A stretch of DNA of 64,000 nucleotides from Nitrososphaerota archaeon. GTDB taxonomy: Archaea > Thermoproteota > Nitrososphaeria > Nitrososphaerales > Nitrosopumilaceae. The stretch is taken from assembly GCA_016201435.1 (NCBI GenBank), contig JACQCT010000014.1:1-64000 (forward strand). The letters run 5' to 3'. Under the pieces are notes generated by a model that searched no databases, was not told where the DNA came from, and worked only from the letters and a program-made list of their open reading frames with translations. Below, piece after piece: positions 3,662-26,052 of the stretch (position 1 is the stretch's first letter; every line of letters begins with the position of its first letter). The translations under genes were made by a program, and so were the position numbers.

Positions 3662-6226
3662 ATGCAACAAAATATCACGGGTGCTGTAGATGAAGTAACA
3701 ACAACAATGCCACCAGCATTACTTGTTTCTGCAACATATAATAGCCAAAAAAAATCCGTGGTTCTAAAATTCTATGAACCTAATTCAAAAAAAATTCTTT
3801 TGTGGACTGATAATACAGGCCATAAGCCATACTGTTATTCCAAACTAGATCCTGAAGAGTTGAAATTTTTATCAGATAGAAAAGATGTACTAGAATTAAA
3901 AAAAACTGAAAAAATAGATCTTCTCAAAGATAGAACAATCAATGTAACAAAAATCATAGTTGCAGATCCACTTGCCATAGGTGGCACTCAGACAGATAAG
4001 AGCATTAGAAACATAATTGAAACCTGGGAATCTGACATAAAATATTATGAGAATTATCTTTATGATTATTCTCTAATTGTTGGCAAATACTATACCATCA
4101 CAAATGGCAAGTTAGAAGAATATAGCTATAAAATCCCAGATGAAGTTCAACTTGCGCTAAAAGGATTATTGTATGATAAAGTAACAAACATGGGAATTAT
4201 TGATTCTAAAGAGTTTCAAAATCACATATCAGATTGGGCAAATTTACTAAACCAACCAATCCCAAAAATTAGAAGAGTGAGTTTTGACATAGAGGTGGAA
4301 TCCGAGACAGGAAGAATTCCAGATGCAAAAATAGCTGATAAAAAAATCACAGCGGTCGGGTTTTCTGGAAGCGACGGTCTAAAACAGGTCTTTGTACTAC
4401 AAAAGAAAGACAAGCAACCTGGAAAAAGCGAACTTGACTCTGACATCAAAATTTCGTTTTATGATGAAGATAAAGAAAAAGATATGATACGAGATACTTT
4501 CAAGATTTTAACAGACTATCCGTTTGTAATTACCTACAACGGTGACGATTTTGATATGCCATATATCTACAACAGAGCTGAAAGACTTGGAATAGATTCT
4601 AAAGAAATTCCACTAATAATGATGAGAGATTCTGCCACTCTAAAGCACGGAGTGCATCTTGATTTGTACAGAACATTTTCAAACCGATCATTTCAGATTT
4701 ATGCATTTAGTCACAAGTATAATGATTTTTCACTAAACAGTGTTTCAGAAGGATTGCTAAATGAATCAAAAATTGATTACGACGGGGAGCTTGATGATCT
4801 TTCATTATACGAGCTTGCAAATTATTGTTACAATGATGCAAAACTAACACAAAATCTGACAAGCTTTAACAACGACCTGTTAATGGATTTACTAGTTGTC
4901 ATAACTAGAATTGCAAGAATGCCCATAGATGATATTTCAAGAATGGGAGTATCACAATGGATTCGTAGTTTGTTTTATTTTGAACACAGAAAACATAATT
5001 TTTTGATTCCACAAAGACAGGAGCTTGATCAAAAATCCCCATCTATATCTACAGAAGCAATCATCAAAGACAAGAAATATCGCGGAGGATTAGTGGTAGA
5101 GCCAACTGCAGGGATTCATTTTGATGTATCTGTAATGGACTTTGCAAGTCTGTATCCTAGTATAATCAAGGTACGAAATCTTTCATATGAGACAGTACGA
5201 TGCATCCATGATGAATGTAAGAAAAATACCATTCCTGGGACAAATCATTGGGTATGTATACGTAAAAATGGCCTTACCGCAGTTTTGATTGGATCTTTGC
5301 GTGATCTGCGAGTAAACTATTACAAAAGTCTTGCAAAAAATCCCTCATTTGATGAGAATCAAAAACAGCTGTATACAGTAGTAAGTCAAGCACTCAAAGT
5401 CATACTCAATGCAAGTTATGGTGTTATGGGGGCAGAAATATTTCCTCTTTATTGTTTGCCAGTAGCAGAAGCAACTACTGCCGTTGGTAGATATACCATT
5501 TTGGAAACAATTGAAAAATGCAAATCAGTTGGCATCGAAGTATTATACGGCGATACAGATTCATTATTCCTAAAAGGTCCTACAAAAGATCAAATTCAAA
5601 CGGTTGTAAGCTGGGCAAAAGAACAATTTGGGGTTGACTTGGATCTTGACAAAGAGTACCTATATGTGGTATTAAGTACAAGAAAGAAAAACTACCTAGG
5701 AGTACAAAAAGATGGCAAGGTTGATGTCAAAGGTCTTACTGGAAAAAAATCTCATACTCCACCATTTATTAGAACTTTATTTTATGAAATTTTAGAGATT
5801 TTATCCAAAGTAAAAACAACACAAGAGTTTACTGAATCAAAGGAAAAAATTAGCGATATGATAGCTCAATATGCAAAAAAATTAAAAGCAAAACAAATTC
5901 CACTTTCTGATCTTGCGTTCAATGTAATGATAAGCAAAGCTCCGTCAGAATATGTAAAGACAGTTCCTCAGCACATCCGCGCAGCCAAGCTTTTGGAACA
6001 AATTAGAGAAATAAAAAAGGGCGACATCATATCATATGTAAAAATAATAAACAAACCCGGCGTTAAACCCGTTGAACTAGCAAGACCAGATGAAATTGAC
6101 TCTGCCAAATACATGGAATTTATGGAGAGTACTTTTGATCAAATTCTATCATCAATGGACCTTGACTTTGCCACCCTCATTGGTGCACCAAAGCAGACAG
6201 GATTAGACCAGTTCTTTTGGAACTAA
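3662..6226 (+). CDS. polB: Family-B DNA polymerase (PolB)
   Basis: Replicative or repair DNA polymerase with 3'-5' proofreading. Exonuclease motifs: FDIEVE near residue 207, YNGDDFD near 292, and YNDAKLT near 390. Polymerase motifs: DFASLYPS near 492 (motif A), KVILNASYG near 578 (motif B) and YGDTDS near 628 (motif C, two metal-binding Asp). At 854 residues it is full length for archaeal PolB. The last residues read QTGLDQFFWN, a canonical PIP box (QxxLxxFF) that would tether it to the PCNA clamp. It follows the dCMP deaminase by 9 bases and may share its transcript. No intein insertion is visible at motifs A, B or C, the common archaeal intein sites. Confidence 0.97.
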   Translation: MQQNITGAVDEVTTTMPPALLVSATYNSQKKSVVLKFYEPNSKKILLWTDNTGHKPYCYSKLDPEELKFLSDRKDVLELKKTEKIDLLKDRTINVTKIIVADPLAIGGTQTDKSIRNIIETWESDIKYYENYLYDYSLIVGKYYTITNGKLEEYSYKIPDEVQLALKGLLYDKVTNMGIIDSKEFQNHISDWANLLNQPIPKIRRVSFDIEVESETGRIPDAKIADKKITAVGFSGSDGLKQVFVLQKKDKQPGKSELDSDIKISFYDEDKEKDMIRDTFKILTDYPFVITYNGDDFDMPYIYNRAERLGIDSKEIPLIMMRDSATLKHGVHLDLYRTFSNRSFQIYAFSHKYNDFSLNSVSEGLLNESKIDYDGELDDLSLYELANYCYNDAKLTQNLTSFNNDLLMDLLVVITRIARMPIDDISRMGVSQWIRSLFYFEHRKHNFLIPQRQELDQKSPSISTEAIIKDKKYRGGLVVEPTAGIHFDVSVMDFASLYPSIIKVRNLSYETVRCIHDECKKNTIPGTNHWVCIRKNGLTAVLIGSLRDLRVNYYKSLAKNPSFDENQKQLYTVVSQALKVILNASYGVMGAEIFPLYCLPVAEATTAVGRYTILETIEKCKSVGIEVLYGDTDSLFLKGPTKDQIQTVVSWAKEQFGVDLDLDKEYLYVVLSTRKKNYLGVQKDGKVDVKGLTGKKSHTPPFIRTLFYEILEILSKVKTTQEFTESKEKISDMIAQYAKKLKAKQIPLSDLAFNVMISKAPSEYVKTVPQHIRAAKLLEQIREIKKGDIISYVKIINKPGVKPVELARPDEIDSAKYMEFMESTFDQILSSMDLDFATLIGAPKQTGLDQFFWN

Positions 6227-12306: not shown

Positions 12307-12708
12307 ATGGCTTTGGAAGCTCATCAAAGATTACTAAATTCATTAGCAAAATCTATGGAAGATGTTGGAATAACTATTACGCATTTGGATATTGATGGAA
12401 CCCCAGAGTATTTTGATGAAAAGTATAGAAAATTACCTGCTCCAAAAGAAAGAGATGGATGCAAACCAGACTTGGAAGGAATGAAAGGAGTTTTGAGGTA
12501 TCTGGGTGAGGCAAAAATTAAGATCAAAGATGACAAAAATCTTATTTCCCAGTTCAGGGCATTTACCAGTCTAGAAATGAATGGTAAGGAAATCCCACTT
12601 CATGTTGCAGTACCCAAACCTCTTAAAAAAGAACTGGAAAAAAAGTTGTACAAACTAGATCTTTATAAAAAGTACAAAAATGGTATGATCAAGATCTGGG
12701 CAGAATAA
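12307..12708 (+). CDS. Hypothetical protein, 133 residues
   Basis: Not recognised. A soluble, lysine-rich alpha/beta protein (MALEAHQRLLNSLAKSMEDVGITITHLDIDG...). The segment TPEYFDEKYRKLPAP and the C-terminal helices KPLKKELEKKLYKLDLYKKYKNG are the most distinctive. No cysteine clusters, membrane segments or catalytic motif seen. It starts at an ATG about 45 bases from the divergent FMN reductase and is probably a monocistronic gene, with the NRAMP gene following after a separate promoter. Confidence 0.65.
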   Translation: MALEAHQRLLNSLAKSMEDVGITITHLDIDGTPEYFDEKYRKLPAPKERDGCKPDLEGMKGVLRYLGEAKIKIKDDKNLISQFRAFTSLEMNGKEIPLHVAVPKPLKKELEKKLYKLDLYKKYKNGMIKIWAE

Positions 12709-14100: not shown

Positions 14101-17100
14101 TTACTGCGAAGTCTGATTCAGTTCATTAGATTCTATTGCATTGGCTTGCTCAGCAAGACCATCTCGTAAAATTTTTCTTTGTCTTTCATATTCATTACTT
14201 TCTAATATCTTGACTGCCTTACTTGCTTGACCATTGTTAACAAGTTCAAGTGCAGCGGTTTCTATCTCTACGAGATCATGATTTGCTTTATCCATAACTA
14301 AAAAGAACGCCTTATCTTTTTTGTCTGCATTTTTAATAGCCTTTTTTAATAATTTATCTGATGCTGGCTCTAGAATTCTGTATCTTTGTTCCCACTTTTT
14401 ATCACCGGTAAAAGCATAATTCCGTGCAGCTTGTGCTAACGCTTCTTCATAATACCTCATAAGTTGAATATTGTATGGCTCATCACCAATGTGTGGATTT
14501 ATTCTGACTTCGGAATTTTCTGTTGGATTCATTGGTAACAAGATAGTAAATGTAGTAGGATTATTTTTCACAGTTATGCTACCGCCATGTTGTTCTACTA
14601 TATTTTTGGAGCTTACTAGCCCCAATCCAGTACCAGTCTGTTTAGTTGTAAACAAGGGATCAAATATCTTAGAAAGAATTTCATCTGGGATTCCCGGTCC
14701 TGAATTTTCAATTGAAATGCATGAATTGTCTTTGTCATCTGTTATCTTTATGGTAATTTCTCCCTTGTCACCCATAGCTTGAACTGCATTTGTTATTATA
14801 TTGATAAAGACTATCTCGAGTTTCTTTGAATCACATGTTATTTTGAGATCGTTTTGTGGCAAGTTAATCTTGACATTAACTGGTTTTGTTATTTTGTCAG
14901 AAAGTCCCTTTATAATTTCAACTAGAGAATGACTACCCAATTCAAGTGGTTTTATCCTAACAAAGTCAAGTACATCTTCAATCTGGTGGGACATTCGTGA
15001 GATAGCTCTTTCAATTATGTCATATTTTTTTAGAATGCTTTCATCAAGCACAACATTTTTGGATTTTAATTTTAATATCGCAAAAGTATTCATAATGATG
15101 GATAATGGATTTCTCAAATCATGACCTAGACGTGATGCAGTTTCACCTATTGCTATCAATCTGCTATTTTTAGCTTTTTCTTCTGAGATAGTTATCTGTT
15201 TTTCTTTTTCATGTAATATCTTCCTTGTATTATACAGATCACTAATGTCCTTGATTGTAAAAACTCCTTCTGTTAACTTGCCATTTTCGTCGAATCTTCC
15301 ATTAGCACTAATTAGGCATGGAAAATTACTTCCGTCTCTTTTTTTTATCCAAATTTCATTATCACGTATTTTTCCATTAGCAATAAATGATGAAAATAAA
15401 CTCATTGCATTTTCAATACTTTTATCTGCGACATAATTAAATATAGATTTTCCAATTAATTCTTCTCTTGTGTAACCCAAAATTGCTGCATGCGTCTTGT
15501 TACAATTAAGAACTATTCCTTCTGGGTTCACTGTACTAAGGAGATCGGGATTTTCATTATACAAATCTTCTAATTCTTTTTTCGCAGAATATGTCTCTGT
15601 CATATCTTTTATCACGCTATTACTTCCTATTCTCTTACCATTCTCATCGTATAGATTGGTTGCACTAATCAAAGCTGGAAAAATACTTCCATCTTTTCTT
15701 TTAAGCCAAATCTCTCTATTTGTTACAAGTCCTGTCTTTTTCCATGTTTCAAACGAATCATGTATGGCAGCAAGGTGTGATTTATCAACATGGTCAAATA
15801 TCGATGTTCCTATAATTTCTTCCCTTGAGTATCCAAGACTACGCGCATAAACTTTGTTACAATCCAGTATTACTCCTTCATCATTTATAGTACGACAAAG
15901 GTCTGGCATTTCATCGTATAGAGTTCTAAACTTATTTTCAGCTAATTTGAGATTCTGTATTGATTTTTTAGTTATATTCATCAATCTACTAAAAGTTACA
16001 TAAAGTTTTGAAATTTCATTATTTTCATTTATGCTGGAATCAAAGTTTTTTATTAAGTTAATTACACCATTTTCATCTATAGCATTTTCCATAGTTTTTG
16101 TAAGTTCCTTAATTGGATTTAGCAAGTTATTAGCAAATAATATTGATGTCATACATATGACAGCAACAATTAAACCAATAGAAGATAATAACATGATCTG
16201 AAGTTTATGAATGTCGCTATATGCATCATCTTTATTGATTTGAGTAACATAGCTCCAATTTGTTCCCTTTACAGAAGTCACTGAGCCTATAACAAAATTT
16301 CCTACATAGTTATTGAAACCATTCACATTCCACACTGTTCCGTGGTTGTCACTTTCTTGATAAGCGTGAAATTCTTTTGAATTTAATCCATTAGCGCGTA
16401 GTTCTAGCTCTGCTCTCTTCGCCATTAAATTTGAGTCTAAAGCTTCTTTAACAAAGGCCGGTTTTGAGATAAAATACCCATCAGAATTAATAAGAAATCC
16501 ATCGATGCTAGTAAACTTACTGCTTATAGAGGCCTTCGTGTCCATTTTAAAAACATTGACACGTGCAGAGAGAACACCTTCTAACCCTACCTCGCCTGCA
16601 ATGGGGACCGATATTAATAATGTTGGAACTCCTTGTTCATACTTTCCGTATTCATTTTTTATAATCTCTGCGGATGCATAGATATCGCTCATGCCTATTT
16701 TTTTTGCAATGGCATCTTGAAAATACTTTTCATCATTAAAAGAAATTTTTGGTGGAGTTATACCTGTATAAAATATAACATAACCTGTTTTGGGATTGTT
16801 AATTATAATTTCGTCTAGCCAGTTATAATTATGAAAAGCAATGTTAAGTTGTTTTTCTAGACTTAATCGTGCTGCAAAAAGCTCTTCATTTCCAATGTTA
16901 GGATCAAGCAATTGCTTAGTTGCTGTAATAATCTCTTGATTGTTTGCTATACTTTGTATGTTGTTCTTTCTTTCTTCGATCCACATTCCAACATTGTTGG
17001 CACCATTTTCTGAACTAGAAATCATTTCGTCTTTTAGGATTTTTTCTTGGGTAGAGATTTTATCAATATACAGATAGCTGGTTATGATTATAATTGGAAT

Positions 17101-17163
17101 AAGACTTAGAACCAAAATTAAAAAAATTAATTTATTGTGATAACTAGAAAATAGTTTAACCAT
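14101..17163 (-). CDS. Membrane histidine kinase, dCache-HAMP-PAS-PAS-HisKA-HATPase with C-terminal helical domain
   Basis: A 1020-residue sensor kinase. Order: TM1 (about 11-31); extracytoplasmic dCache-like sensor (about 35-315, with the FFHNYNWLDEIIINN / IFYTG / DEKYFQDA signature style); TM2 (about 324-346); HAMP (about 347-395); two PAS domains (about 412-530 and 530-650, each with GYSREEI/GYTREEL and KRDGS motifs); HisKA with phospho-acceptor His681 in GHDLRNPLS; HATPase with N-box NIITNAVQAM, G1 NSGPGIP and G2 GTGLGL near 843. A further roughly 130-residue helical region after the ATPase resembles a four-helix sensing bundle. Its start overlaps the stop of the substrate-binding protein gene by 8 bases, so it is the last gene of a seven-gene operon. 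Ligand unknown. Confidence 0.88.
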   Translation of the reverse strand: MVKLFSSYHNKLIFLILVLSLIPIIIITSYLYIDKISTQEKILKDEMISSSENGANNVGMWIEERKNNIQSIANNQEIITATKQLLDPNIGNEELFAARLSLEKQLNIAFHNYNWLDEIIINNPKTGYVIFYTGITPPKISFNDEKYFQDAIAKKIGMSDIYASAEIIKNEYGKYEQGVPTLLISVPIAGEVGLEGVLSARVNVFKMDTKASISSKFTSIDGFLINSDGYFISKPAFVKEALDSNLMAKRAELELRANGLNSKEFHAYQESDNHGTVWNVNGFNNYVGNFVIGSVTSVKGTNWSYVTQINKDDAYSDIHKLQIMLLSSIGLIVAVICMTSILFANNLLNPIKELTKTMENAIDENGVINLIKNFDSSINENNEISKLYVTFSRLMNITKKSIQNLKLAENKFRTLYDEMPDLCRTINDEGVILDCNKVYARSLGYSREEIIGTSIFDHVDKSHLAAIHDSFETWKKTGLVTNREIWLKRKDGSIFPALISATNLYDENGKRIGSNSVIKDMTETYSAKKELEDLYNENPDLLSTVNPEGIVLNCNKTHAAILGYTREELIGKSIFNYVADKSIENAMSLFSSFIANGKIRDNEIWIKKRDGSNFPCLISANGRFDENGKLTEGVFTIKDISDLYNTRKILHEKEKQITISEEKAKNSRLIAIGETASRLGHDLRNPLSIIMNTFAILKLKSKNVVLDESILKKYDIIERAISRMSHQIEDVLDFVRIKPLELGSHSLVEIIKGLSDKITKPVNVKINLPQNDLKITCDSKKLEIVFINIITNAVQAMGDKGEITIKITDDKDNSCISIENSGPGIPDEILSKIFDPLFTTKQTGTGLGLVSSKNIVEQHGGSITVKNNPTTFTILLPMNPTENSEVRINPHIGDEPYNIQLMRYYEEALAQAARNYAFTGDKKWEQRYRILEPASDKLLKKAIKNADKKDKAFFLVMDKANHDLVEIETAALELVNNGQASKAVKILESNEYERQRKILRDGLAEQANAIESNELNQTSQ

Positions 17164-18508
17164 TTTTCTTCTCCATGGAAATCAATGCATTTGATTCGTT
17201 TGCCCAATTGTTGTGCCACCCATGATAAAGATTAGCAAGAAATGCATTCCATTCTTCCTTTGATTTATAATCAGGGTATGGGACAGGCATGATTGGTGCC
17301 TCTGAACTTGCAACTATCTCAAATTGACCATTACCAAGTATTTTTCCAATCCTAACTGTCTTTGACAGATGTTGAGTTACTGGGTCTACACCTACAATTC
17401 CTTCTGGTGCAGCAAATGTCAGCCCTTTTGCAGTCTCACGAATCTTATTAACATCATCTGATTGCGCAATCTTAGCTGCCTTGGCAAAAATATATACTCC
17501 TATGTATGCTGCTTCCATAGGATCGCTTGTAACACGCTGTTCACCATATTTGTGTTTAAAATTTTCAACAAAGACTTTATTCTCTGGAATATCAAGACTT
17601 TGGAAATAATTCCAAGCTGCATAATCACCTTTCATGTCATTTGCATTTAAATGCGTAATTTCATTTTCACCAATACTAAATGAAATGGTTGGAATATCTT
17701 GGGGTGTAATGCCATTTTTTCTAAGTTCAGTAAAGAACCAGATATTGCTATCACCATTAATGGTATTTAGAATAACATCAGGTTGTGTTTGTTTGATCTT
17801 TTCTATTACATCGCTAAAATCCTTACTTCCAAGTATTTTATACTCTTCTCCAACAACCTCACCACCAAGCTCCTTTATTCGTTCAGTCATAATGGCATTT
17901 GCACTTTGAGGAAATACATAATCTGAACCAACAAGGAAAAACTTCTTACCTATATTTTTAAAGGCCCACTCAACTGCAGGTATGACTTGTTGATTTGGTG
18001 CAGCACCGGTGTAAATGATATTTGGTGATTCTTCTAGTCCTTCATACTGAACTGGATAGAAAAGTAAATTATCATATTTTTCAAATACCGGTTCCATGGT
18101 TTTTCGACTTGCGGATGTCCATCCTCCAAAAACTGCACTCACGTGTTCTTTTGTTATAAGACGCTCTGCCTCACTAGCAAATACATTCCAGTTGGACTGT
18201 CCATCTACTACTATTGGTTGAATCTTTCTTCCTAAAATTCCACCTTTTTCATTAATTTCATCAACTGCCAAAAGTGTAGCATCAACGACTGGTGTCTCAC
18301 TGATAGCCATCGTACCAGAAAGAGAGTGAAGTATGCCCATTTTTATAGGATGTTTATCATCTAATGGAACGCTTACAGATTTAGAGCTCAGTTCTTCATA
18401 GGATCCAATTTGTTGCATCGCTTGCGGTGTTAGAAGTGAATAACATAGAAAAAATACTGCAACTATACTAACAGTACCAAGACCACACCAGACTTTATTT
18501 ATTCTCAA
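17156..18508 (-). CDS. UrtA-like urea/amide substrate-binding protein, membrane-anchored
   Basis: Type-1 periplasmic binding protein of the urea/short-chain amide class (UrtA/AmiC/FmdD relatives). An N-terminal hydrophobic segment (about 8-27) acts as anchor or signal. The binding fold begins KMGILHSLSGTMAISE, followed by INEKGGILGR, FGGWTSASRK, FYPVQYEG and WAFKNIGKKFFLVGSDY, all close to UrtA landmarks. In ABC systems such proteins deliver urea or amides to permeases, but no permease or ATPase gene is nearby. Instead it sits between two histidine kinase genes, overlapping each (4 bases and 8 bases), which suggests that it presents its ligand to a kinase. Ligand identity is inferred from family resemblance only. 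Confidence 0.85.
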   Translation of the reverse strand: MRINKVWCGLGTVSIVAVFFLCYSLLTPQAMQQIGSYEELSSKSVSVPLDDKHPIKMGILHSLSGTMAISETPVVDATLLAVDEINEKGGILGRKIQPIVVDGQSNWNVFASEAERLITKEHVSAVFGGWTSASRKTMEPVFEKYDNLLFYPVQYEGLEESPNIIYTGAAPNQQVIPAVEWAFKNIGKKFFLVGSDYVFPQSANAIMTERIKELGGEVVGEEYKILGSKDFSDVIEKIKQTQPDVILNTINGDSNIWFFTELRKNGITPQDIPTISFSIGENEITHLNANDMKGDYAAWNYFQSLDIPENKVFVENFKHKYGEQRVTSDPMEAAYIGVYIFAKAAKIAQSDDVNKIRETAKGLTFAAPEGIVGVDPVTQHLSKTVRIGKILGNGQFEIVASSEAPIMPVPYPDYKSKEEWNAFLANLYHGWHNNWANESNALISMEKKNG

Positions 18509-19560
18509 ATCAATTGACTCTCAGTATTACAAACTTCAAATTGTTTTTTTGTTTGACTATGATCAGCCAGATCAATACTTGGTGTCATTGGCAAGCTGAT
18601 TTTCATTGAAGTTCCTTTTCCAACCTCACTTTCTGCCCAGATCTTTCCACCATGCTGTTCTATTATGACTTTGCATATATACAAGCCCAACCCACTGCTG
18701 CTTCGCCCGCCATTGTTAGATGAATCTAGTTGACAGAAACGGTTGAACAAGTTACTGATTTTCTCTTTTGGAATTCCTATTCCGTTATCCACTATGGAAA
18801 GAGTCATGTTGTTATCTTGTAATTGACATTCCATTCGTATAACTCCCTCTTCAACTGGAACAAAATCTATTGCATTTTTAATTAGATTTGTTACTACCTG
18901 AATCATTCGTTGTTTATCCACGTTGATTTCTAGACCAGGAGTTGTCAGATCCTCGAAAATAACTCCGCGTCTGTTTGCAAGAGGCAAAACAGTCTCTATT
19001 GATTGCCGTACGATTTCGTTTACGTCAACAGACTCCAAATTAAGCTTTAGTTTATCTAAGTCGGCTTTGTGTAGATCGTGTATATCGGATATTAAATTCT
19101 GTAGGCTTTCGGTACTGGAGATTATTACTTTTAGCTTTTCTTTTTGTTTATCATTTAATTCACCAAACCTTTCTTGTATGAGCATTCTGGAATAAGACGC
19201 AATAGGTACAATAGGAGTTTTTAGGTCGTGTGTTACCATTGCAATAAACTCTGATTTTGCCTTGTCAATTTTTCTTAATTCTTCATTTTGTTTACAAATC
19301 ATAGTTTTTGCATGCTGTAATTTGTTAAAAATAAGTCTAACAACATATGTGAGTAAAATATGAACTATAACAATGAAAATGCCAATGCCCATAACTTTGT
19401 ATTTTACTGGAAGAAATGTATCATTTACGAGACTATCAATATTGATAAGATAAAACGAAAGCAGAATAATTATACTGCCGCCTAACATGACAATAAAGAA
19501 AATCAAATTAATCTTTTGGGATTGCAATTGGAGTAATGTGTCAATTATATGCAAAGTCAT
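18505..19560 (-). CDS. Two-TM sensor histidine kinase
   Basis: A 351-residue histidine kinase. Two membrane segments (about 18-39 and 55-76) with a short loop between them leave no room for a sizeable external sensor domain, so it may sense through a partner such as the neighbouring binding protein. HisKA phospho-acceptor His111 lies in THDLKTPI; the N-box NLIKNAIDFV, G1 DNGIGIP, and G2 SSGLGLYI are intact, so the enzyme should be active. It overlaps the next gene by 4 bases and follows the mini zinc protein after 1 base, within the same operon. It is the more likely direct partner of the two receiver proteins, though kinase-receiver pairing cannot be read from sequence. Confidence 0.9.
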   Translation of the reverse strand: MTLHIIDTLLQLQSQKINLIFFIVMLGGSIIILLSFYLINIDSLVNDTFLPVKYKVMGIGIFIVIVHILLTYVVRLIFNKLQHAKTMICKQNEELRKIDKAKSEFIAMVTHDLKTPIVPIASYSRMLIQERFGELNDKQKEKLKVIISSTESLQNLISDIHDLHKADLDKLKLNLESVDVNEIVRQSIETVLPLANRRGVIFEDLTTPGLEINVDKQRMIQVVTNLIKNAIDFVPVEEGVIRMECQLQDNNMTLSIVDNGIGIPKEKISNLFNRFCQLDSSNNGGRSSSGLGLYICKVIIEQHGGKIWAESEVGKGTSMKISLPMTPSIDLADHSQTKKQFEVCNTESQLI

Positions 19561-19561
19561 T

Positions 19562-19753
19562 TTATGTATCTCCTGAAATCCTTGAGCTTTTACTCAATCC
19601 ATTAAAACAATCTTTATGATACCATTTGTTACCATAAATTATATCGCCTTCTGATAACTGCAATTCCTTTTTGCAGTATTCACAGATTTGGATAAGATAG
19701 TTATGTGGTATGATTTGCTCTACATTATTTTCCATGCTCATCATTTCTGACAC
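19562..19753 (-). CDS. LIM-like mini zinc protein
   Basis: A 63-residue protein with C24-x2-C27 and H46-x2-C49 (CEYC ... WYHKDC), the pattern of the first half of a LIM domain, with WYH as in LIM zinc fingers. It probably binds one zinc and serves as a protein docking module. It overlaps the matrixin gene by 13 bases and precedes the kinase gene by 1 base, so it is an integral operon member. Three in-frame Met codons (positions 1, 4, 5, 7) leave the exact start open. No function can be assigned beyond a likely adaptor role. Confidence 0.7.
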   Translation of the reverse strand: MSEMMSMENNVEQIIPHNYLIQICEYCKKELQLSEGDIIYGNKWYHKDCFNGLSKSSRISGDT

Positions 19754-20691
19754 ACCACTTGGCTTGATTGTTTGCCATCATATAGTGCAGTTACCGCATC
19801 AATGTCACAACCAGAAATGTACGGATACTCTGTTTGTATAGTTGCATGCATTAGATCTTCTGGAGCTGATGAATGTGCAAGACCCATAGCGTGCCCAAAC
19901 TCGTGTCTCATAATGGAACCAATCTGGTTTGCAGAAAGCTGGTCTGCACTGTATATTGTTATTGTGGTCTTGAGTATTTCATGTCCATCTGCAGTTGATT
20001 TTGTATACCCTGATAGTCCATCTGGGTTTTCATTCCTGGTAAGCTTGATTATAATTTCACCTACACCCTTTGGCGAATCACTTACATCAAATTTTTCTGG
20101 AATGTAAAACTGTGTTGTCTGTGTAGATGCAGCCCCTAATGCTCCTGCCCACCCTTTGTAATATACTGATGATGTACCTGAAAGACCTTTGTGTAATAGC
20201 GAGTCATCAAGTGATACTGTTTCAGTAGATAGGATGGAGTTTTTTACTGCAAATATCATGTCTGGCGACAAACTGGCTTCATTTATAATATCAACATGCA
20301 GGGTTTGTCCAGTAACAAGGTGCCATGCAAGCCATGTGTTTACTGTATCACCTTGTAGGTTTTGTATGACATAGTTAGAGTTGTAGTTTGCAAGTTGATT
20401 TGGTATTGTGTTTGTGGGAACCTGATTCTCATGGTATGAATATGCTGCAAACAAAGTCAATCCTACAAACGCAACAATAAATATTGGAATGTATTTTCTT
20501 CTTGAACCATCCATTGTATGATTCTGCCTGATTTTGTGCTCAGTTTGTTGTGATAGTAATTTTTGTTCAATTAATTTAGCATTAAATGCGTTCGTATTCG
20601 GTATCTCTTGGTTTTGTCTTTTTAAAGTTGAGTTTATTTCTTTTAGGATAATTTTTTGCTGTTCTAGATCCGGGATTAGCTCTGCTTTCAT
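19741..20691 (-). CDS. Membrane-anchored matrixin (M10-like) metalloprotease
   Basis: A type II membrane protein of 316 residues. Residues 1-65 are cytoplasmic and coiled-coil-prone (QQKIILKEINSTLKRQ), TM at about 67-84, then an extracytoplasmic domain ending in the metzincin zinc motif HEFGHAMGLAH at 263-273 and the Met-turn Met280 in DLMHA. The active site Glu and three zinc His are intact, so it should be an active peptidase. The presence of a cytoplasmic N-terminal helix and its overlap (4 bases) with the receiver gene upstream suggest it is coupled to signalling, perhaps acting on a sensor or surface protein. Substrate unknown. Confidence 0.87.
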   Translation of the reverse strand: MKAELIPDLEQQKIILKEINSTLKRQNQEIPNTNAFNAKLIEQKLLSQQTEHKIRQNHTMDGSRRKYIPIFIVAFVGLTLFAAYSYHENQVPTNTIPNQLANYNSNYVIQNLQGDTVNTWLAWHLVTGQTLHVDIINEASLSPDMIFAVKNSILSTETVSLDDSLLHKGLSGTSSVYYKGWAGALGAASTQTTQFYIPEKFDVSDSPKGVGEIIIKLTRNENPDGLSGYTKSTADGHEILKTTITIYSADQLSANQIGSIMRHEFGHAMGLAHSSAPEDLMHATIQTEYPYISGCDIDAVTALYDGKQSSQVVCQK

Positions 20692-21176
20692 TTTTGAATC
20701 ACCGATGTTTTTTGAGACCCCACACTGAAAATCAATTCAGTAGATTGTACTAGAGATCCTAGTTGTTTTAGATTAGATTTATTATTTCTCTGTGAGTCAA
20801 TAATTTCTTTTACAGTATTTATTACTTTTTTTATATCAAATGGCTTGTAAATTATAGATGATGCGTGTAAACGTTCTAGAATCTCAGCTGTTTCTTTTGT
20901 AAGATCGGCTGTAACCATTATTACTATGGCATCAGGATTTATTTTCTTTATTTGTTCAAGGGCATAAATTCCGTCATAGGTGTCCATCATCACATCAAGA
21001 AAAACTACATCTGGCTTGAAGGTTGAATATAATTCTGCTACTTTTTCACCATTATGTGCTTTACCTACAACTCTAAATTGGTAAAGATCTAGATATTCGC
21101 AGAAGACGTCAAGCGTATCAATGTCGTCGTCAACAACTATTACAGTTATTGGTTCATTTTTGTTATTTATAATCAT
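20688..21176 (-). CDS. Receiver-domain response regulator with C-terminal tail
   Basis: A 162-residue CheY-like protein. The acidic cluster is VVDDDID, phospho-acceptor Asp61 in FLDVMM, signalling Thr89 in VTAD, and Lys111 in YKPF, so phosphorylation chemistry is intact. After the receiver (about residue 125) a 35-residue low-complexity tail follows (SQRNNKSNLKQLGS...), with no DNA-binding or enzymatic output domain. It starts at an ATG overlapping the stop of the preceding receiver gene by 1 base. Its output is probably by protein-protein contact. Confidence 0.9.
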   Translation of the reverse strand: MIINNKNEPITVIVVDDDIDTLDVFCEYLDLYQFRVVGKAHNGEKVAELYSTFKPDVVFLDVMMDTYDGIYALEQIKKINPDAIVIMVTADLTKETAEILERLHASSIIYKPFDIKKVINTVKEIIDSQRNNKSNLKQLGSLVQSTELIFSVGSQKTSVIQK

Positions 21177-21562
21177 TATTTTTTGCTTCCAATTATTTTC
21201 AGATTATTTAACTCAAACGGCTTGTAGATAATTTCTGACGCACCTAGCTCAACAAGTTGGTTTTCTCTCTCTTCAGTTTGATCAGCTGTTATTATTATTA
21301 TGCTAGCACGAGGACTAATCTGTTTGATCTTTTCAAGCGCATAGATACCGTCGTAATCTGGCATCATTACATCCAAAAAGACAACACCAGGTCTGAATCT
21401 AAGATACATATCTACGGCATCCTTACCATTGTAGCCTTTGCCTAAAACATGGATATTCATTAGTTCAAGGTATTCGCAGATGACATCTACTGCATCATGA
21501 TCATCATCTATGACTATTGCGGTTGTTGGTTCTACCTCATTTTTATTGTCTGAGATTGTCAA
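21176..21562 (-). CDS. Receiver-only response regulator, first gene of the operon
   Basis: A 128-residue stand-alone receiver with acid pocket VIDDDHD, phospho-acceptor Asp64 in FLDVMMPDYDG, Thr92 in ITADQ, and Lys114 in IIYKPF. It is a close paralogue of the next gene (shared EYLEL, YNGKDAV/HNGEKVA, DGIYALE, IYKPF), consistent with a tandem duplication followed by loss or gain of the C-terminal tail. The TTG start lies about 24 bases downstream of a TATA box, so the transcript is probably leaderless and this is the operon's first cistron. Confidence 0.9.
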   Translation of the reverse strand: MTISDNKNEVEPTTAIVIDDDHDAVDVICEYLELMNIHVLGKGYNGKDAVDMYLRFRPGVVFLDVMMPDYDGIYALEKIKQISPRASIIIITADQTEERENQLVELGASEIIYKPFELNNLKIIGSKK

Positions 21563-21580: not shown

Positions 21581-21590
21581 TTTATATAAA
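21581..21590 (-). promoter_or_regulatory. TATA box of the signalling operon
   Basis: The sequence tttatataaa reads as a near-symmetric TATA element centred about 24 bases upstream of the TTG start at 21562. That distance fits archaeal transcription beginning at or next to the start codon (leaderless mRNA). Confidence 0.6.
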
Positions 21591-21626
21591 ATATTCGTGC
21601 ACTTGAATGAGTAACAAGATGTGTAT

Positions 21627-21642
21627 CATGGTACTCACCATG
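21627..21642. repeat. Perfect 6-bp inverted repeat upstream of the signalling operon
   Basis: CATGGT-ACTC-ACCATG at 21627-21642 is a perfect short hairpin or dimeric binding site. It lies about 40 bases upstream of the operon TATA box on the minus strand, a position suited to an activator. Could also be chance. Confidence 0.35.
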
Positions 21643-21824: not shown

Positions 21825-22148
21825 ATGATATATTACACGATAGAAAAGAAGGTGGCTGTCCATTCACGTAGAAACAAACTAGAGATCTATTACGCTATTA
21901 TGACATCTATTCAGTCTGAAGCTAGATATGGCAAAATCAGACCTACTAGAATACAATTTCTCAGTAACATGTCATATGATAAGATTAACAAATATTTTGA
22001 TGAGCTTGAGAACAGTAAAATGATCAGAAAAAAACCACTTGTGCTAACAGACAAAGGCAAAGAGTTTCTAGTCGATTATGAGAAGATACATGATTTCATG
22101 ATAAAACTCGGTCTCAAATATGTTGACGATTTTGAAGTCAGGTTATAA
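21825..22148 (+). CDS. Small winged-helix DNA-binding protein
   Basis: A 107-residue winged helix-turn-helix protein. Residues 15-95 carry KLEIYYAIMTSIQSEA, the recognition-helix region RIQFLSNMSYDKINKYFDELENSKMI, and the wing RKKPLVLTDKGKEFL, a pattern shared with ArnR1-like archaeal regulators. No ligand domain is attached. It starts at an ATG just after AT-rich tandem repeats that may be its own operator. It is divergent from the signalling operon (263 bases apart) and could be its regulator, which is inference from position. Confidence 0.75.
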   Translation: MIYYTIEKKVAVHSRRNKLEIYYAIMTSIQSEARYGKIRPTRIQFLSNMSYDKINKYFDELENSKMIRKKPLVLTDKGKEFLVDYEKIHDFMIKLGLKYVDDFEVRL

Positions 22149-25257: not shown

Positions 25258-26052
25258 TTGAGCAAAGATCCTCCTGTAGAAAGCACAGAGCCAGTATCTA
25301 CTAACGACATAATAGATATGATGTTAGGTGGAGGCAAATCAAACGCATTAGATACCGAATCACTAATCAAGGAAACCCAAAAAAGAGTCTGGAGTTCCCT
25401 TAAGAAAGGTTACGAGTACGATTATACCGTAGACGAGTCGGATAAATTTTTGCGATCGCATGTAGATATGAAATTACACATGATCGTAATTTTTGTTGAT
25501 TTGGTTGGATCTACAGAGATGACGTTACAATTACCTACAGAAAAATTGGCAATTATCCTAAGTTCATTTTCTCAAGAGATGAGATATGTTATCAAACATC
25601 ACGAAGGATATGTTTTAAAATATGTCGGAGATGCTGTAATAGGATATTTTGTAGCAGAGAACAGCCCGCTTTTAATAGCTGATAATGCGGTCAACTGTGC
25701 GAGAACTATGATTGATGTAATAGAAAGAGGAATAAATCCAATTCTTAGTGAATATGACTATCCAGAGCTTCGTGTGAAAATCGGAATGGATTTTGGAGAA
25801 AACACCATAGTAAGATATGGATCAGATCAGAACAGATCACATGTAGACATACTTGGTCCTGCAATGAGTATAGCCGCAAAGATAACAGCTCTTGCCAGAC
25901 CAAATCAGATCTTAATTGGAGAAGATATTTATGAAAAATTACATCCATCGTTAAAACAATCATTCAAAGAAGTGGAGTGGCATGGCTCTCAGTGGAACTA
26001 TCACAATAGAGAAACTGGAAAACTTTATCGTGTTTATGCACTAATTGATTAA
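25258..26052 (+). CDS. Class III nucleotidyl cyclase domain protein with degenerate catalytic residues
   Basis: A 264-residue protein with a C-terminal class III adenylate/guanylate cyclase homology domain (about 72-230). The two metal-binding aspartates are present: Asp81 in FVDLVGST and Asp125 in KYVGDAVIG. However, where active enzymes carry Asn...Arg in GxAVNxAAR, this protein reads GPAMSIAAKI: Ser204 replaces the transition-state Asn and Lys208 the Arg. It may therefore be a weak or inactive cyclase, a pseudoenzyme, or use different chemistry. Start is TTG. The N-terminal 70 residues are low-complexity and polar. It is downstream of a zinc-ribbon gene in a likely operon. Confidence 0.82.
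   Translation: MSKDPPVESTEPVSTNDIIDMMLGGGKSNALDTESLIKETQKRVWSSLKKGYEYDYTVDESDKFLRSHVDMKLHMIVIFVDLVGSTEMTLQLPTEKLAIILSSFSQEMRYVIKHHEGYVLKYVGDAVIGYFVAENSPLLIADNAVNCARTMIDVIERGINPILSEYDYPELRVKIGMDFGENTIVRYGSDQNRSHVDILGPAMSIAAKITALARPNQILIGEDIYEKLHPSLKQSFKEVEWHGSQWNYHNRETGKLYRVYALID

Follow-up and report, generated by a model that had tools for sequence, protein, structure and literature searches.

Receiver-only response regulators of the CheY/Spo0F-like class have been catalogued in Thaumarchaeota, where most of them lie in no conserved neighbourhood and where proteases are not mentioned (PMC5847659). Binding proteins of the periplasmic type are encoded beside membrane kinases with an extracytoplasmic sensor domain in TorT–TorS and LuxP–LuxQ, and an UrtA-like protein acts as a sensor rather than a transporter component in AmiC–AmiR of the Pseudomonas amidase operon. 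DHp domains that lack an ATPase can serve as phosphotransfer proteins, as in Spo0B. Here we compare these systems with a seven-gene cluster in the window, the whole stretch of 64,000 nucleotides that was analysed. A preliminary description had read the cluster as a single system of a make-up not described before; we found no description of the receiver–matrixin–kinase association in the papers searched. We somewhat favor the view that the cluster belongs to a family of two-component operons, modular in make-up and found in Nitrosopumilaceae, in which a membrane-anchored matrixin keeps recurring as a partner, with a route from urea through kinase and receiver to surface proteolysis as its working model.

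Seven minus-strand genes span positions 14101-21562, and in the open reading frames each adjoining pair overlaps or abuts. RR1 (21176-21562), a receiver-only response regulator of 128 aa with a TTG start (Pfam Response_reg, E 1e-22), overlaps by 1 base with RR2 (20688-21176), a second such regulator of 162 aa (Response_reg, E 2e-21), which in turn overlaps by 4 bases with the gene for a membrane-anchored, M10-like metalloprotease of the matrixin type (19741-20691; Peptidase_M10, E 9e-9). A 13-base overlap leads to a LIM-like mini protein of 63 aa with a GTG start (19562-19753; weak Pfam LIM match), a 1-base gap to a 351-aa histidine kinase with two TM segments (18505-19560; HisKA and HATPase_c), a 4-base overlap to a membrane-anchored UrtA-like protein with a TTG start (17156-18508; Peripla_BP_5, E 4e-157), and an 8-base overlap to a dCache-PAS-PAS histidine kinase of 1020 aa (14101-17163; dCache_1, two PAS domains, HisKA and HATPase_c). 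The overlaps of 1-13 bases with one 1-base gap, and the assignment of receivers, matrixin, kinases and binding protein, are as first described and are borne out by the coordinates and by Pfam. The TATA box proposed ahead of a leaderless TTG (21581-21590, minus strand) is kept upstream of the aligned start codon in the window and in two genomes of the same genus, G004 and G002, both of which have ATG where the window has TTG. The conserved TTTTATAT lies ∼20-28 nt upstream of the aligned RR1 start codon in all three, a spacing consistent with a leaderless transcript.

RR1 and RR2 belong to the same class as the regulators of the thaumarchaeal census. By sequence reading, RR1 has the phospho-Asp, T/S and Lys motifs; Pfam and reading together place the phospho-Asp and Lys in the receivers, and the HisKA His and the N, G1 and G2 boxes of HATPase in the kinases. 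RR1 is 80% identical to its counterpart in G004 and 71% to that in G002, and RR2 68% and 80%, respectively. The LIM-like protein (71% identical in G004, 76% in G002) has the first finger only of the two zinc fingers of a full LIM domain, with the half-LIM pattern C-x2-C-x18-H-x2-C. Its designation as LIM-like is upheld by the cysteine/His pattern, which is conserved in relatives, but not by its Pfam score of 15 bits, which lies below the cut-off of 22.9. Elsewhere (L097/L256), its homologue is fused to PAS-HisKA-HATPase directly downstream of a matrixin.

Comparison within the genus contradicts the single-system reading. G004 retains RR1, RR2, the matrixin and the LIM-like gene with identical overlaps of 1, 4 and 13 bases. 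The syntenic locus of G002 retains RR1, RR2, the LIM-like gene and the two-TM kinase (87% identical) but is missing the matrixin, of which it carries a 29-nt scar (29/29 nt); its LIM-like gene overlaps the preceding gene by 13 bases and ends 1 base from the kinase. The matrixin is therefore dispensable in this operon, G002 having deleted it and kept the other genes. A fixed seven-gene system, contradicted by G002 and G004 and by the UrtA loci L006 and L007, was rejected.

The UrtA-like protein passes the TIGR03407 urtA cut-off (509.9 versus 492.75 bits) and conserves all eight urea-contact residues (W130, S132, Y151, Q154, E156, Y197, N251 and S278) when P. marinus UrtA is taken as the reference (PMC10392092). 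In these respects it matches the UrtA of UrtABCDE, but a kinase gene takes the place of UrtBCDE downstream, and the protein has an N-terminal TM segment (8-26) and an extra C-terminal tail of ∼30 aa that is common to kinase-linked UrtA homologues. We found no UrtBCDE permease or ATPase genes in the operon or its flanks, as the preliminary description had also noted, and none were seen among the open reading frames of L006 and L007; a role as a transporter component was rejected on this ground. AmiC, which is likewise a sensor, differs in being a cytosolic antitermination regulator without the UrtA Trp and Gln contacts, whereas the protein in the window is membrane-anchored and adjoins a kinase. 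The likeness to TorTS and LuxPQ comes from gene adjacency; unlike them, the pair in the window is archaeal and combines a tethered binding protein of the UrtA family, with its urea pocket, and a dCache kinase without a fused receiver. Because the eight urea contacts are conserved and the same genome encodes urease genes (along with an SSF symporter), urea sensing by the pair is likely. In a further genome that has an UrtA–kinase pair (G025), the urease search returned no match, and the ligand in that genome may be something other than urea.

UrtA–kinase pairs occur in 2 of 398 genomes of the phylum. The dCache kinase lies directly downstream of UrtA at all three loci, with a receiver and a matrixin within a few kb at two of the three. 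In the last kinase of the window, the dCache head, whose dCache_1 score is just below the Pfam cut-off, is 60% identical to that of L006, the second UrtA locus, and the kinase body is 74-87% identical to that of G002. Its C-terminal domain of ∼135 aa (14101-14508, minus strand), which has no name and no Pfam match and is probably helical, is 76% identical in the G002 kinase and absent from those of L006 and L007. The last kinase is thus a chimera of an L006-type dCache head and a G002-type body of PAS, kinase and C-terminal domains, and the UrtA and dCache part is a rare, recent addition that swapped the sensor head. Together with the deletion in G002, this is why the seven genes do not hold up as a single system.

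The matrixin of the window shares with M10A matrixins and bacterial and archaeal MMP-like proteases the MMP fold, the HExxHxxGxxH zinc site (HExGHxxGLxH, 263-273) and the Met-turn (M281), as judged from Pfam, alignment, AlphaFold and Foldseek. The AlphaFold model has a pLDDT of 85.7, with protease blocks mostly at 90-98, and catalytic domains of human MMPs make up nearly all of its top Foldseek matches (TM to target 0.55-0.68). It differs from known M10A matrixins in being a type II membrane protein, composed of a cytosolic coiled-coil helix (5-59), a TM segment (67-89) and an external protease domain (113-316); the N-in/C-out orientation is predicted from charge (5 versus 0 K/R). Unlike in animal pro-MMPs, no PRCGxPD cysteine-switch motif was seen on reading the window protein and the alignment of its relatives. 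The cysteine-switch prodomain of animal pro-MMPs is not universal among microbial matrixins.

Among 398 genomes of the phylum (E 1e-15), all matches to this matrixin family fall in Nitrosopumilaceae and none outside it. Among 128 distinct matrixins, a receiver protein is encoded no more than 1.5 kb away in 80 cases, where ∼5 would be expected (4.1% per gene at random), although genomes and loci are best matches that are mutually related, and the counts are thus not independent. Local density is 2.36 receivers per 10 kb against 0.095 genome-wide, an association 25-fold above background; 43 of the 128 have neither receiver nor kinase within 1.5 kb. The cultured relative Nitrosotalea devanaterra (LN890280.1) has REC-matrixin-kinase loci at ∼1254-1267 kb and a REC-matrixin pair at ∼1231 kb. 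Of the gene order that the preliminary description proposed looking for, the receiver–matrixin–kinase association is therefore common across the family and greatly exceeds chance, with fusions and same-genus synteny. It also bears on whether the CheY-like receivers and the UrtA–kinase pair feed urea taxis or motility, the matrixin neighbourhood being incidental. Such receivers are abundant in motile ammonia-oxidising archaea (AOA) and several occur at the second UrtA locus, but a general inspection of the cluster and the surrounding loci, not aimed at such genes, identified none for chemotaxis or the archaellum, and the 25-fold association makes this reading very improbable.

Seventeen of the 128 matrixins have a HisKA (DHp) domain at the N-terminus but no ATPase; the phospho-His is retained in 16 of these, 16 adjoin a receiver and 16 adjoin a kinase. 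One such fusion is encoded at another locus of the window's own genome (L040), although the window matrixin itself lacks HisKA, and stand-alone DHp proteins are found beside some matrixins. A single family profile finds MMPs as well as HK853-type DHp domains among PDB structures; the AlphaFold model of a fusion is weak (pLDDT 56, from a 16-sequence alignment), and its Foldseek matches are MMPs. The DHp domains resemble those of Spo0B-type phosphotransferases in lacking a working ATPase and keeping the His, a likeness confined to the relatives of the window protein, but unlike Spo0B they share a chain with an external protease, to which a TM segment connects them. No DHp-matrixin relatives were found on plasmids. 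The domains are no more similar to those of neighbouring kinases than to those of other kinases; a recent copy from a neighbour was ruled out, and cognate pairing is unsupported by similarity. Because of the receiver enrichment (80/128) and the fusions that keep the phospho-His, the matrixin is probably an output of two-component signalling and possibly an input.

As an input, the matrixin would be the sensor: binding or cleavage outside would alter the coiled coil or DHp domain, feeding or draining receiver phosphate, with the kinases setting the baseline. The receptor-like topology (external domain, one TM segment, coiled coil, DHp with its His) and the capacity of ATPase-less DHp domains for phosphotransfer, as generally known for Spo0B, fit this direction, but the catalytic residues do not vary among the 77 aligned relatives, which points to catalysis, and many matrixins lack the DHp domain. 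We regard it as improbable.

Upstream of the operon, a divergent gene (21825-22148, plus strand) encodes a winged-helix protein (HTH_45, E 4e-12) that is a candidate DNA-binding partner. It is 86% identical and likewise divergent in G004; homologues are divergent from matrixins at L056, L088 and L092, and at the paralogous locus L006 a TrmB-type regulator is followed by a receiver and then a matrixin. The statement that the system has no DNA-binding output thus holds inside the seven-gene set of the preliminary description, which did not include this gene, but is not safe once the conserved neighbourhood is considered. The receivers might then act on transcription through the winged-helix protein (TrmB at L006), the matrixin being one gene of the regulon, in the operon by coincidence and physically unconnected with the kinases. 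The conserved gene in G004 and beside other matrixins, the L006 order, the loss of the matrixin from G002 with the signalling genes kept, and the archaeal census, which notes ArsR-like HTH genes in divergent arrangement with thaumarchaeal receiver-only regulators (PMC5847659), all speak for co-regulation. This reading leaves the 17 HisKA-matrixin fusions and the stand-alone DHp proteins unexplained, and most receiver–matrixin pairs have no winged-helix gene nearby; we consider it rather unlikely.

Our working model is instead that urea or a close analogue binds membrane-tethered UrtA, which would dock on the last kinase at its dCache ectodomain. Together with the two-TM kinase, which the LIM-like zinc finger probably modulates, this kinase would phosphorylate the stand-alone RR1 and RR2. 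The phosphorylated receivers would contact the cytosolic coiled coil of the matrixin (the DHp domain in relatives) and switch or position the protease domain outside, and surface proteolysis would change in response to a chemical signal. What the computation shows is how the genes are ordered and conserved, the fusions, the enrichment, the preserved catalytic and urea-contact residues and the chimeric origin of the kinase head; each signalling step, the direction of signalling, the protease substrate and direct phospho-control of the protease are inferred. The earlier proposal of urea or nitrogen-compound sensing acting through surface proteolysis is supported at the sensing end by the intact urea pocket and the urease genes. 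That an AOA phosphorelay directly controls surface proteolysis, with receivers and kinases acting on a transmembrane matrixin through its DHp domain or coiled coil and with sensor heads that can be exchanged (in this operon, a urea head), is a proposal that we advance tentatively.

Many thaumarchaeal receiver-only regulators have unknown targets, for which matrixins, through their gene neighbourhood and their fusions to HisKA, provide a concrete candidate. If the link is direct, regulated cell-surface proteolysis would be an unusual two-component output, and control by a phosphorelay would send a signal outward across the membrane to a protease, a kind of output not described before. The locus itself is a sensor-head swap caught in the act, and nature has here run an experiment in the gain of a new ligand by an archaeal kinase.

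The seven minus-strand ORFs placed at 14101–21562 by the preliminary description were all found at those positions, joined, in order, by overlaps of 1, 4 and 13 bases, a gap of 1 base and overlaps of 4 and 8 bases. Pfam matched the names given to their products, except that the LIM-like finger scores under the cut-off. The proposed operon start also holds, because the TATA box and start codon align across the window and the same-genus genomes G004 and G002, with the TTG of the window appearing as ATG in both. The gene set was incomplete, however, in that a divergent winged-helix gene (21825–22148) had been omitted; its G004 counterpart is 86% identical and also divergent. The TATA box is preceded, ∼20 bases further upstream, by an inverted repeat, GAGTA-N18-TACTC (21609–21636), which is partly kept in G004 and could be an operator.

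Among 398 genomes of the phylum, the family of the membrane-anchored matrixin is confined to the window's own family, where 102 of 200 sampled genomes encode 1–10 copies each. We retrieved the surroundings of 128 distinct matrixins and found a receiver protein within 1.5 kb of 80 and a kinase within 1.5 kb of 47; with 11–31 receivers per genome, the expectation is 4.1% per gene. Receiver density around matrixins is 2.36 per 10 kb versus 0.095 genome-wide, and a same-strand receiver stands <60 bases ahead of the matrixin in 38 cases. The weakest receiver groups were confirmed by Pfam. Because the sample was drawn from best matches, near relatives among them, a binomial figure for this enrichment is no real probability. 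The receiver label requires 18 changes on the matrixin tree, indicating that the association is not one inherited cluster. Near one REC–matrixin–kinase locus, a winged-helix domain is fused behind a domain that by eye looks like MEDS/DcmR (L088:984–1778).

The AlphaFold model of the window matrixin (77 sequences, pLDDT 85.7) comprises a helix (residues 5–59), a TM segment (67–89) and the protease (113–316), with the N terminus inside as judged by charges. In Foldseek its top matches are almost all catalytic domains of human MMPs, and the 77 sequences share HExGHxxGLxH and the Met-turn without exception. Seventeen matrixins carry an N-terminal extension of 120–150 residues, in which HisKA (DHp) scored above the Pfam cut-off in all four tested and from which a HATPase domain is absent; one end of the family profile matches human MMPs and the other HK853-type DHp domains. 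The phospho-His is retained in 16 of the 17. Stand-alone DHp proteins of 113–164 residues adjoin other matrixins, two of them with the His replaced. The replaced forms are L067:6006–7271 (matrixin-fused, Asp), L056:5659–6051 and a 164-aa ORF in L123 (both stand-alone), with Asp in at least two. At least nine changes of the DHp label on the tree indicate repeated gain or loss. A close relationship between matrixin DHp domains and those of neighboring kinases was considered, and no special similarity was found. The receivers adjoining fused matrixins cluster tightly in a single group, at 58% inside the group against 35% outside it. LIM-like mini proteins elsewhere sit ahead of two receivers (L240, L246, L247 and L248), and in L097 and L256 a LIM-like finger and PAS-HisKA-HATPase form one chain directly after the matrixin.

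In G002, the syntenic locus shares its flanking genes with the window and reads RR1-RR2-LIM-two-TM kinase-PilJ-PAS kinase, where RR1 and RR2 are the receiver-only regulators. The end of its RR2 (L249:4060–4180) contains the final codons of a matrixin gene, with 29 of 29 nt agreeing with the matrixin 3′ ends in the window and in G004; this is a clean scar of the deleted matrixin. G004 has the winged-helix gene, RR1-RR2-matrixin-LIM and a PilJ-PAS kinase. At L006, a second UrtA locus in the window's genome, a UrtA 76% identical to that of the window is paired with a dCache kinase, divergently from TrmB-REC-matrixin. Residues 1–330 of the last window kinase are 60% identical to this L006 kinase and unlike the G002 kinase, whereas its DHp (87%), ATPase (87%) and C-terminal domain (76%) match the latter; judging by these identities, it is a chimera. 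For its PAS1, identity is 74% with the only PAS domain in the G002 kinase and 68% with the L006 PAS, and PAS2 has no close partner (38–45%). These comparisons identify receivers, matrixin, LIM and kinase as a core on which sensor heads have been exchanged; the single-system claim is not supported for the seven genes as a whole.

Several further features accompany these loci. The ∼135-aa C-terminal domain of the last kinase (14101–14508; MRYYEEALAQAARNYAFTGDKKWEQRY...), kept in the G002 kinase, matches no Pfam family and is presumably similar to a helical domain known from sensor proteins of bacteria. A short ORF ahead of the paralogous UrtA (L006:9726–9905), whose end resembles the two-TM kinase C terminus (50%, 30 bits), is probably a relic of that gene. 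Three ∼95–101-aa L006 proteins (4405–4692, 5746–6051 and 12413–12700) look by eye like the C-terminal part of REC-NitrOD5 proteins (cf. L079); a Pfam scan of one gave no match. A class III adenylate/guanylate cyclase domain (window 25258–26052; PF00211, E 2e-12) has an 89% identical counterpart close to the syntenic block of G002.

UrtA–kinase pairs occur in 2 of the 398 genomes, the window's own (two loci) and G025, and in none of the other genomes among five compared from the genus. Of the ligands suggested, urea is the probable one here: the membrane-anchored UrtA of the window scores above the TIGR03407 cut-off and retains each of the eight residues shown to line the urea site of Prochlorococcus marinus UrtA (PMC10392092), and the genome encodes urease and an SSF symporter nearby. 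A urease search of G025 gave no match, however, so the ligand there may differ. A C-terminal tail common to kinase-linked UrtA forms, and absent from a transporter-linked UrtA, is a possible docking element.

The fusions and gene order suggest that the protease would be directly controlled by receivers or DHp. Co-regulation through the winged-helix protein, in place of direct control, is a possible alternative, as is a matrixin that itself acts as the sensor. In a census of archaeal two-component systems, most thaumarchaeal receiver-only regulators lack a conserved neighborhood, and the main text never mentions proteases or peptidases (PMC5847659). We likewise found no account of a receiver–matrixin association in the open-licence literature. 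On balance we lean toward the reading that these operons link two-component signaling to a membrane matrixin, with urea the probable signal here. They would then represent two-component systems whose enzymatic partner is unusual, and possibly a categorically new mechanism.
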